Below are positions 45,385 through 55,526 of a DNA stretch of 64,000 bases, one piece after another; position 1 is the first letter of the stretch; each line of letters begins with the position of its first letter. The position numbers were made by a program, and so were the translations under genes. Below the pieces are notes generated by a model. That model was not told the DNA's origin. It was given only the letters and a program-made list of their open reading frames with translations, and ran no database searches. The stretch lies in contig JAIESQ010000052.1 in assembly GCA_019745975.1 (NCBI GenBank), positions 1 through 64,000 of the forward strand, written 5' to 3'. This DNA comes from Pirellulales bacterium. Its GTDB lineage: Bacteria; Planctomycetota; Planctomycetia; Pirellulales; JAEUIK01.

Positions 45385-48300
45385 CTAGGCAAGGTCGATC
45401 CGCAAGCGCGCTTCGGAACCTAGGTCCGCGGGCGGAACCTCGGTCCGGCTAGTTCGTAGCGCTTTTCGCAGCCAGATTGCCACGCACACGGTAACGAGCG
45501 CGACTCCAAGCCAAGCGCCGGCCAGGCAAGTTGCCCAAACCAAGCCGACCAAAGCGCCCACGACCGCCGGGCGGGCAAGCAACCAATTGCCGACCCATTC
45601 CCCAATTCCCGATAGCAGTAATCCGGCCATCCCGAGCAACGCTATCGCGGCTAGAACCGTTGTGGGCAGCCATGTTACTGCGCCAGACCGATGCAGCCGA
45701 AATTCGAGGATGGGATGGCGGCCGTGAAAAACGGCGCGCAGGGAGTTGAGGGAGTCGGTCGTTGCGGGTCCGGAAATCTCCCCTCGTATCGCCAGAGCGG
45801 GTACGTCGATCGGCTCCGACTCCTTCACACGCATTTCCTTGGGTGGCTCGCCGGCGGCAGCATTCGGGTCTTTCGGCAACCGGGCTGACAACCGTTCGAT
45901 TGCTTGCTGCACGACTTCGAGTTGGCTGGCGAGGTCCTGCCTCTCGTCGACCGATGCTGTGTTAGCCGCGTCGTGGGCGCGATCGCGAGCCGATCGAAGG
46001 CGTTCGAGCCAGCCGGCCGCCGCGTCGATCTCATCGGCTTGCAGCCGCTCGGGAAGGCTTTCGCAGAGCGTTTCGACGACGGCCGAGAGGCTGCTAGCGC
46101 GCACCGACTCAAATGGCGCGGCAGCCAGGCTCTGGCCGGCCGGTTGGCGTGGACTTGAGGGGTATCCGGCATCTCGCACCTGCCAAAGGGTGCGTTCAAC
46201 GGGTAGATCGCCAGGTGACGGCGCAGCGATAGCTCTGGCGGACGAGAGCATCCCTCGGTTTTGTACTTGTCCGCGAAAGAACACTTCAACGCGCTGCGGC
46301 AATTGCGCCGTATGCAGCAAGACTCGGTAACGATTGGGGCCGTCAGCGATCACTTGGCCGGGAACGCGCTCCACCCAAGTCCACAGAATCTCGCATCCCT
46401 CAGGGACCGTTAGAGGTAAGTATCGCCGTTCAGCGGGATCGAGGTCAAATGTGGCCATACCGTGCAAGTTGCCCGTAGGCAGGAGAGTAATTGAATAACC
46501 TGCAATCCGGACCTGGGGGGTACCCGCATCCACCGCGATCTGCCATCCCGCTTCAAAACTATCCGCCAGCACACGATGTGGCAGCGGCAAAGGTCCAGCG
46601 AGCGACCACAAGCTAGCGTTTGCACCAGCAGGGGTTTCGACTCGTGCCAAACCACGCGTCTGCCAGTTGATGGTCTTGCCGTCGTCGCGACCAGGAAGCA
46701 CCAGGTACTGCTCGAGTACTTGTGCATCAGTCGCTTCGATGGCCGGTACGAGCAAGCGCTGCGCGCCTCGAGGCAACAGGCGCGCGCGAAGCTCTAAGCG
46801 GTATCGACCGTCGACTGACTCGCTCGGAACGACCGTCAATAGTTTGCGCTGTTCACCAGCGCCGGGGCTAATCGAAAACTCCGCTGCCGGATTGACCTCG
46901 ATCGCCTCGCTAACTTCAGGCGGAAGCCACACATGGAAGCGATCGAGCGATCCGTGGGCGACTTCGTAGTCGGCTCGCCACTCCACGAGCCAGACTCCGT
47001 TCCGACGGCCCACGACGGTCGTGGTGGTCGCCGTGATTTCGGGATGGTTTGGCGCCACGACAACGCGCGCCTGGTATGTGGGCTGATTTGCCTCGTAGCT
47101 GGCCACGACTCGCGATTCGGATGCGGATTGCACATCGACGGCCATCGACTCGTCAAGCGGGCGCAAATCCTGTTCCGCTGTTAGCGCAAGTTGAACTTGC
47201 GGCGTACGCAACACGGTTACGTGCGCGGATCGTACATCGGCGCCCTTGAGCCACACGACTGCCAGAGCGTGTTCGCCAACGTCGGGGGAAGCCAACGAGC
47301 CGCTAAACGAAACGATGTGATCACCCGTGAGGGGAGACGCCAGGATGACCGTCAGGCGGCCATCGTCGGTGAGTGACCAGCGCGCGCGGCGAGCAGCGTG
47401 GCCCGCGGTGACAAGAACGGAATCGAGCTCGAGGTTGTGCGGAACTTGAATCTCGTGCCGCAGCACTGATCCGCCCAGTGCTTGGATTTTGGCAGTGAAC
47501 TGCACCTGCACTTGACGACGGCCGTACTCACAAGTCAGGGACGTCTGCGCGATTTTTTGCGCAGGGTGCGGCCGACCAACAATCAACCAGTTCGACTCGT
47601 TCGAGTCGTGCTGCAAGTAAGCTCGAAGTGGTGGTTCTAGGTTGTCCCCCCATGCTGTTACGAACTCTTGATTAGGCGCGATGCGGTACCCAGCGATGTT
47701 GGATTCGGCAATATCCAGATTGCCGACTACTGAAACGGCCAACCAGCGCCGTGATACTCGCCCGTGCAACGGCACGATCCACGGAGCCGCGAGCCGTCCG
47801 ATACCTGACGACCTTTCCGCTAACAAGTTCAATTCGGCAACCGCTGTTCCGTCGCTCTTAGACACAAGAGGAACCGTCAGAATCTGTCGCGCCGCTCCAA
47901 CCCGCTCAACTCCGGGCAGCGGGCGCGATTCGTCACTGAAAGGCAACGGGCGAAGGTCGTCCGCCGTCTCGACCCGAATCAGCTCGCTGCCTGCGGCAGA
48001 CGGTAGCCGAAAACGCACTTGGATGACGACAGCGCCGGGCTGCAACGACACCCAAGTAAGCTGTTCAATCTCTGGCGGCAAGGTGGCGTCCACCTGCCTT
48101 GTGTCGTGCGGCCAGCGAACAGCCAATCGGCTCTGTCCGCCCAGGGGCGCCACGATCGACTGTTGGCCGGCGTTCGATGACAAGGTTCCCGTCGCGGCAT
48201 CACACTCGATCGGCGGGGCGTCGGGGGGGAGTTCAATCTGGGCTTCGGCGCAAGGTAGAGCCGGCACTACCCACGACATGCCCGTCGATTCGGGTGATTG

Positions 48301-55100: not shown

Positions 55101-55526
55101 GATCCAGCCCCCCTTGAGTGCTTTGATCTCCACACTGACTTCGAGCGCGACATCGGTGGCGTGAGCGTCGCCGCTGGCCGTAAGGGAGAGCGCAAATTCT
55201 GGTTGCGGTGCGACTCCACCGCCATCATCCCGCGCCAGCAAGTGTTCGAGACGATCGAGCGAGAGGTTTAGCACCGGTTGCAGCCCTCCGGCCGCGTCGG
55301 GAACCAGAAAGACTGACGGTAGCCGCTCAGCGATTGCCGGCGCGCTCGCGGGGGGGGGAGATGGCTCAGCTTCCGCGGACGTGTCGCCATTGGGCGCCGC
55401 GTTGGTAGCCTGCGGCCGCGTCGGAACGCTGTCCGGGCTACTCGTTTCTTGCGCAACGAGCCCGTTTGCCGACCAGGCGACGGCGGCCGCCAAAGCAAGT
55501 TGCCAAATGCCTGGTCTGTGCGACAC
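52107..55526 (-). CDS. Giant one-unit exported membrane protein, paralogue of its downstream neighbour
   Basis: 1139 residues; no family recognised. The GTG start (MSHRPGIWQLALAAAVAWS) has AAGGG upstream and gives a clean signal peptide (LALAAAVAWSANGLVAQE); a longer frame upstream is open but unlike a protein start. After a Pro/Ser-rich linker, PSVFLVPDAAGGLQPVLNLS opens a ~930-residue beta-rich ectodomain. Three or four membrane helices lie at about 1015-1095 (APRWLLVLISSGITLVAGLA and following), with a basic Ser-rich tail. A module near 460-560 (ASWNIEEVGP, then IPLLKPALGEIEITIVARRP) matches one at the same depth in unit A of the neighbour. The two genes are coupled by a four-base overlap. 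Confidence 0.72.
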   Translation of the reverse strand: MSHRPGIWQLALAAAVAWSANGLVAQETSSPDSVPTRPQATNAAPNGDTSAEAEPSPPPASAPAIAERLPSVFLVPDAAGGLQPVLNLSLDRLEHLLARDDGGGVAPQPEFALSLTASGDAHATDVALEVSVEIKALKGGWIAVPLRLDEGLLVPRSDRYTGAGSAVIVPATGQRGYLCWIRGDADTTHKLQLSLRVPLEFRSGESQLRLTLPRTTGALLALHVGGDRVQGRTVEPAILDVDPVVEGGGTNFRLQSPGVRFELHWSPVDAEGSDVVQSLVATANVAVHVEGQLVRSQAQISVQSLVGEFSRFHVRLPPGAQLSHVPAGRGITIQEVAAIDAETPLPADEEATGSIVVVRLSRPAEQVELQLETERNLGEQTASDDIELAGFAVVEARRQSGYYALAVDGDRQVVWQRQHQVRQITPAELPAPLPDEKWLAAFEFTAQPSALACRLVSRAPRVTASASCNYLVEADAIRLEARLKYSVRGARVFELACQGLDASWNIEEVGPVALVDLDGLHYDQREPLVIPLLKPALGEIEITIVARRPWSEDNNPWRQAVVEPVANVVRAGSLIVASASNVQVVPKTSELVGLVPQPLTATEGLFQLAAEDVLSYRTTEPRPLFVAQCRRLARETSAQVTTVIECRRTDVLITQTNIVQVAHEAASYLEIAAPASWGAIDEREVLIDGHPATFLETDETPLDANDGDRAPLAAATQERKTWRMTLPQPRLGRVEILVRYPLPLVARPAGKATELAVPLAMPRVDRLTHNELRLQSQSGIEPRVVSRQWRVGISEPLSRLDHGGGRRFRAEGPVYDALLQVSAGTNDTTEELLVDRVWIQTWQLGSDRLDRAVFVVATSEPRIEFVLPPGADRQTWRALVGGKPVIPTQGATNRTVVPLSGDAARPQVVELRYRCAGALSRWGRMELIPPTMAPVTWVRQVYWQFVCSDQDHLVLIPANWGPEFSWHWSGLGWHRLSRLDDGALERWSGAKHETEAPQGYHRYLISRLGDLQPARIVTAPRWLLVLISSGITLVAGLALLYVPSLRRPELLVTVGLMIAVITLLDLHFAVLVSQAGSLGVLLSLLAAWWRRQLRSRQPMRVVVTRSNSSRLERDLTPTAFAVAGTGSNSSTTAASVPVE

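Follow-up and report, generated by a model that had tools for sequence, protein, structure and literature searches.

Introduction

Peptidases of family M1, such as LTA4H, ERAP1 and aminopeptidase N, combine a catalytic domain with a single copy of the peptidase M1 N-terminal domain (PF17900). Ost1, also called ribophorin I, a subunit of the eukaryotic oligosaccharyltransferase, contains two modules in tandem and a C-terminal membrane anchor. Long ectodomains of tandem beta-sandwiches are also known from the legs of integrin alpha chains and from alpha-2-macroglobulin-type modules, and integrins, too, are anchored in the membrane at their C terminus. An arrangement of another kind is found in the cytochrome b/c1 precursor of Bradyrhizobium japonicum, the product of fbcH, in which a single chain comprises two proteins and contains an internal signal peptide, where signal peptidase cuts.

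Planctomycetes have unusual envelopes, and no role is assigned to many of the proteins conserved in them. Of the essential proteins of Planctopirus limnophila, 108 are confined to the phylum and have an unknown function (PMC10632474). Here, we describe a planctomycete locus of two genes, A and B, for a large and widely kept set of predicted envelope proteins that lies outside the standard family libraries: no family in Pfam or NCBIfam covers either protein, and a profile of A found no match among the PDB sequences. Its parts have known relatives, i.e., the M1 N-domain fold, Ost1-like arrays and precursors cut by signal peptidase. In the open papers searched, neither a description of the locus nor one of this combination was found.

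Layout and neighborhood of the locus

The window, i.e., the whole stretch of 64,000 nucleotides that was analysed, stems from a Pirellulales bacterium (contig JAIESQ010000052.1). A previous examination of its letters, further called the sequence-only reading, had placed the two genes and given their lengths correctly. The helix clusters that it had described are also present, in B at residues ~1016-1082 and ~2147-2220 and in A at residues 1021-1096, as is the signal-like helix of B, near residue 1108. The features are as follows.

44574..45095, minus strand: RimI-type acetyltransferase gene, downstream of B; a similar GNAT gene follows B in 10/40 fetched neighborhoods
45385..52110, minus strand: gene B, 2241 aa, two units in one open reading frame; its start overlaps the end of gene A by 4 bp
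45451..45672, minus strand: B2 C-terminal membrane helices, residues ~2147-2220 (AF2 model)
45880..46122, minus strand: B2 helical region ahead of the membrane anchor, B residues ~1997-2077 (AF2 model)
46126..48636, minus strand: B2 ectodomain, five modules, B residues ~1159-1995 (hhalign to A, AF2 model, VIA-align)
48727..48822, minus strand: internal signal peptide of B (..RFVMLAVAAGAAIPGTRFSATA/AEP), residues ~1097-1128; predicted signal peptidase I cut between 48727 and 48726
48865..49065, minus strand: B1 membrane anchor, three helices, residues 1016-1082
49246..51798, minus strand: B1 ectodomain, five modules, B residues ~105-955 (hhalign to A, self repeats)
52000..52110, minus strand: B N-terminal signal peptide (..IAVTA/ADP), from the sequence
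52107..55526, minus strand: gene A, 1139 aa, GTG start; predicted single-unit exported membrane protein, with homology beginning downstream of the GTG
52239..52466, minus strand: A C-terminal membrane anchor, three helices, model residues 1021-1096, followed by a short cytoplasmic tail
52467..55214, minus strand: A ectodomain, five tandem M1-N-domain-like beta modules, model residues ~105-1020 (repeat profiles, AF2 model, VIA-align)
55452..55526, minus strand: A N-terminal signal peptide (..SANGLVA/QE), from the sequence; orthologues have a hydrophobic N terminus
55719..56495, minus strand: inositol-monophosphatase-family (IMPase) gene, upstream of A; syntenic in 18/41 neighborhoods

The GTG start of gene A at 55526 has AAGGGAAA upstream. 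An alternative ATG at 55709 would give a protein of 1200 aa, in which homology is found only after ~residue 70-100.

Of the 58 genomes of the order, that of the window among them, 53 contain gene A. In all 41 A-B pairs that were compared, the genes are adjacent and on one strand with A first, and 16 of the pairs overlap by exactly 4 bp. The order A then B also holds in nearly all loci of the wider phylum set; at L162, the larger gene comes first. A search for related loci with the window protein as the query gave no match; an alignment of closer relatives retrieved 29 loci. With a profile of slower-evolving A proteins (a six-row alignment), the family was found in 46 of the 119 genomes sampled across Planctomycetota, and a single-sequence search found it in 97/294 genomes of the phylum. 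The gene-neighborhood search proposed in the sequence-only reading showed A and B to be adjacent in nearly every genome read, across Planctomycetota. No relatives were found on plasmid records. Some genomes contain two paralogous A-B loci (second loci L071, L072, L073 and L074 in G046, G050, G015 and G038; also G105 and G126); these paralogues, with their different neighbors, suggest two old subfamilies that would differ in evolutionary rate.

The synteny with the IMPase and RimI genes is restricted to part of the order and is absent elsewhere; therefore, these genes are not taken as functional partners and are probably bystanders. A divergent gene for a protein of 289 aa without a Pfam or NCBIfam family (56864-57733, plus strand) lies beside the locus in 14/41 neighborhoods. 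In one family, at L065, L066 and L070, tandem genes for trypsin/PDZ (HtrA-like) proteases are convergent to B. Elsewhere in the window, a protein of 1145 aa (12143-15580, minus strand) shows an LptD/LptA N-terminal domain match, which is consistent with a two-membrane envelope, and a gene at 1663-5298 (plus strand) encodes an AAA_27/SMC-like ATPase of 1211 aa.

Three homologous units

Profiles were built from the 41 A-B pairs (the window and 40 fetched neighborhoods) for A and for the N- and C-terminal halves of B, called B1 and B2. Their alignment with hhalign, the comparison proposed in the sequence-only reading, revealed significant similarity among all three units, each time at 100% probability: A/B1 with E 3.9e-57 over 1039 columns, A/B2 with E 1.3e-52 over 985 columns and B1/B2 with E 8.5e-47 over 849 columns. 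Column-reversed control profiles of the units reached only E >= 0.002 and a probability of <= 13%. Among slower-evolving relatives, even plain blastp connects A with B1 (E 1.5e-51) and A with B2 (E 7e-32). Together with the natural unfused relatives described below, the profile homology bears out the notion of three related units, two of which are fused in B. The similarity of the third unit had been considered weaker; at the profile level, it is not weak.

The five-module repeat and its predicted fold

Each unit consists of five tandem modules with a period of ~175 aa, followed by membrane helices. The repeat is apparent from off-register alignments within and between units (e.g., A residues 138-853 against 307-1024, E 1.6e-22). 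When each unit was cut into five and the resulting fifteen modules were compared by profile, all were found to be mutually related. Across the units, first modules pair with first modules and fifth with fifth (98-99% in both cases), and the middle three modules of all units cross-match at 94-99%. This five-fold repeat was overlooked in the sequence-only reading; the W...L.I.L..(A/P)L...R.P module reported there is the third of the five tandem repeats in every unit.

AlphaFold2 models of A and B2 (pLDDT 77.8 and 77.3, respectively) consist almost entirely of beta structure until the C-terminal helices begin. Their pTM is low (0.40-0.42), and therefore only the individual modules are trusted, whilst the arrangement and relative placement of the modules, and a rod shape, are not predicted. 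Foldseek and VIA-align returned the same families for both models, and the structure prediction that had been suggested as a check thus gave the same top matches for the two. Single modules of either model superimpose on the N-domain of M1 aminopeptidases with VIA-align Z-scores of 11.4-13.4 and an rmsd of ~3-3.6 Å over ~150-160 aa. In the A model, these matches include residues 90-268 (Z 11.9) and 831-1020 (Z 13.4). The VIA-align matches of the B2 model, single modules and longer stretches together, lie at model residues 11-230, 238-585, 412-582, 412-756 and 758-1036. The structural matches cover all five modules of B2 and the first, fourth and fifth of A; the second and third modules of A are assigned on the basis of the profile repeats. 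A profile of planctomycete M1 N-domains, collected by means of PF17900, matched the third module of B1 with 92.4% probability and E 5e-7 in hhalign. Weak matches in the same register were obtained for several of the other modules, and the reversed profile matched no module at all. The modules are thus predicted to have the fold of the M1-aminopeptidase N-domain.

Given this fold and the weak profile match, the units might be degenerate M1 peptidases, reduced to repeated N-domains, with a residual or substrate-binding peptidase function. We find this scarcely credible: no match to the M1 catalytic domain of Pfam was found in A or B, and HExxH is not conserved, being present at scattered places in just 4 of the 82 proteins from the 41 loci. 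PF17900 itself did not exceed its curated cut-off in A, B, 30 A orthologues or seven slower-evolving units.

Stretches of two modules match Ost1/ribophorin I with Z 12-15 (in the A model, Z 15.0 over residues 634-1020) and a large rmsd, which would be expected with a different inter-module angle. For either model, the top VIA-align Z-score was that of Ost1, matched by an array of two modules, and both Ost1 and the rods are membrane-anchored module arrays without a catalytic domain of their own. The rods could, therefore, be accessory subunits of an Ost1-like modifying or translocating machine, with the modules holding substrates near a membrane enzyme. However, the beta-sandwich fold is widespread, M1 peptidases match nearly as well, a conserved neighboring gene for a glycosyltransferase or a translocon is absent from the neighborhoods compared, and Pfam revealed no sequence match to the ribophorin family in A, B or their relatives. 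Such a role is thus decidedly unlikely.

Relatives with unfused units

In several lineages, the units are encoded by separate genes. Three adjacent single-unit genes are present at L159 and L170; by best score, the first is A, the second B1 and the third B2. The termite-gut genomes have A, B1 (~1430 aa) and B2 (~1310 aa) as separate genes that lie on different contigs; the unit genes of the termite-gut Planctomycetaceae loci L102, L103, L104, L106 and L108 are unlinked, and all three kinds are kept. The B profile splits in these genomes at the joint of the fused protein, with model positions <=1187 in one gene and those from 1209 in the other, and the unfused B1 ends after its membrane anchor. 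Versions with two units also exist (L161:4488-13016 and L164:7420-15643), in which single-unit genes of ~1450-1525 and 1276-1284 aa are paired.

The sequence-only reading had proposed duplication followed by fusion. The duplication is clear, and the unit tree does not settle whether fusion or a later fission took place. The single genes group in it with the matching halves of fused B, and those of the termite-gut genomes are nested inside fused clades. Because long branches and alignment problems between the fast- and slow-evolving subfamilies distort the tree (A forms two clades, and B1 and B2 of L173 pair with each other), no order of fusion and fission is claimed.

The internal signal peptide of B

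At the joint of fused B, the three helices of the B1 anchor are followed by a loop with positive charges, a short hydrophobic segment and a signal-peptidase-I site, often of the form xA-Q. The internal helix, described before as signal-like only, is therefore predicted from these residues to be a full Sec signal peptide with its signal-peptidase-I site. In a first test, sites inside helices were also counted, and signal peptides could not be separated from membrane helices. Instead, a block-end rule was applied to all helices, which demands [AVSTGLI]xA followed by Q, A, D or E and a hydrophilic sequence thereafter. The internal helix passes this strict rule in 28 of the 41 fused B proteins, as compared with 30/41 of the N-terminal signals of A, 20/40 of those of B and only 34/361 (9%) of the other membrane helices of the same proteins. 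The site is thus ~7 times more frequent in the internal helix than in membrane helices (Fisher 2e-16, uncorrected for shared ancestry). The B copies compared with that of the window, a subset of the set, are only 16-27% identical to it. In the window, the site reads ATA/AEP at residue 1128 and fails the strict rule, as the downstream residues are not hydrophilic enough. Among further two-unit B genes, a site is visible by eye in 7/8, L172 being the exception. In that gene (L172:3469-10017, minus strand), a lipobox-like LPGC near residue 1110 replaces the AxA site before the second unit; judging from this motif, the second half might become a lipoprotein.

In the unfused relatives, the same element serves as the N-terminal signal peptide of B2 itself, and the boundary of the signal peptide in fused B coincides with the gene ends in these relatives. 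An internal translation start was considered as a general source of B2 and is unlikely, since a Met is present within the 25 residues before the internal helix in only 10/41 proteins.

Alternatively, B could stay intact, with the internal helix retained as a fourth transmembrane segment that leads the chain back into the periplasm, to form a two-rod protein partnered with A. The membrane layout works uncut (three helices plus one), and a strict AxA-[QADE] site is missing from the copy in the window and from roughly one third of all copies. This is nevertheless unlikely, as strongly diverged copies carry the AxA site as frequently as true N-terminal signals, far above its frequency in real membrane helices, and B1 and B2 are separate proteins in relatives.

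Proposed model

The model that we prefer builds on the computed homology of the three units, their five-module repeat, the membrane layout, the order of A and B and the natural unfused versions. In this model, A, B1 and B2 would each be exported by a signal peptide, expose five beta modules in the periplasm and be held in the inner membrane by approximately three C-terminal helices. After the B1 anchor, the B chain would be on the cytoplasmic side; the internal signal peptide would re-insert it, and signal peptidase I would cut at the AxA site, so that B1 and B2 would be released as individual proteins in equal quantity, comparable to those of the lineages with separate genes. That B is such a polyprotein, cut into B1 and B2, is probable in our opinion. 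Contacts between modules would then join the three proteins in a hetero-oligomeric stalk, which would act in the periplasm as a scaffold or tether without catalytic activity, and coupled translation of A and B would fix the stoichiometry. A structural role is suggested, because the proteins are membrane-anchored module arrays without catalytic parts and are kept as a related set.

Based on co-occurrence and gene order, a heteromeric envelope complex, as was proposed in the sequence-only reading, is plausible. The specific A:B1:B2 stalk with its scaffold or tether function is put forward tentatively, and we would rate it somewhat below an even chance. The model as a whole, i.e., three homologous rods, a B polyprotein and a scaffold, appears to us evenly balanced between right and wrong. 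Counted against it are the ATA/AEP of the window, which misses the strict rule, the two loci L161 and L164, which carry only two units, and the neighboring genes, which are uninformative on function except in part of the order.

The rods might instead constitute an envelope sensor, in which the periplasmic parts detect a signal that is relayed by the cytoplasmic tail of A. Conserved Ser/Thr-rich patches (SS and ST) are present in this tail in relatives. However, this tail is short and of low complexity, and the neighborhoods compared contain no conserved signaling gene, which makes a sensor so improbable that we give it little weight.

Under the preferred polyprotein reading, a new N terminus of B2 after the AxA site is predicted, and the natural fused and unfused versions allow a test of the role of the polyprotein arrangement. 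Throughout the phylum, the locus may, although we would not call this probable, encode an envelope machine in which fifteen module copies form three rods, two of them freed from a single chain by signal peptidase I at the conserved internal signal peptide, that together constitute a scaffold spanning the periplasm. If true, this scaffold would be hetero-oligomeric and built from a bacterial polyprotein whose two halves are homologous.

Comparison with known systems

The closest likeness of the single module is with the M1 N-terminal domain of LTA4H, ERAP1 and aminopeptidase N, with which it shares the predicted fold (Z 11-13). In contrast to M1 proteins, which have one such domain, the units contain five in tandem, are anchored by three helices and have no catalytic domain, and their modules stay below the detection level of PF17900.

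Ost1, with the best VIA-align Z-scores (up to 15.0 and 14.0 for the two models), resembles the units in its tandem modules of the same predicted fold and its C-terminal anchor. It has, however, two modules instead of five and is present as one copy, whereas three homologous units are found here, and nothing found for the rods points to a role in glycosylation. The legs of integrin alpha and the alpha-2-macroglobulin-type modules were matched by Foldseek with E-values down to 1e-9, and integrins share the C-terminal anchor with the rods, but global TM-scores were ~0.1, indicative of a generic beta-sandwich resemblance and not of demonstrated homology.

The arrangement of B is most similar to that of the fbcH precursor, which is also one chain with an internal signal peptide; cleavage is a prediction in the case of B. 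Whereas the two products of fbcH are unrelated proteins with a known function, the two halves of B are homologous to each other.
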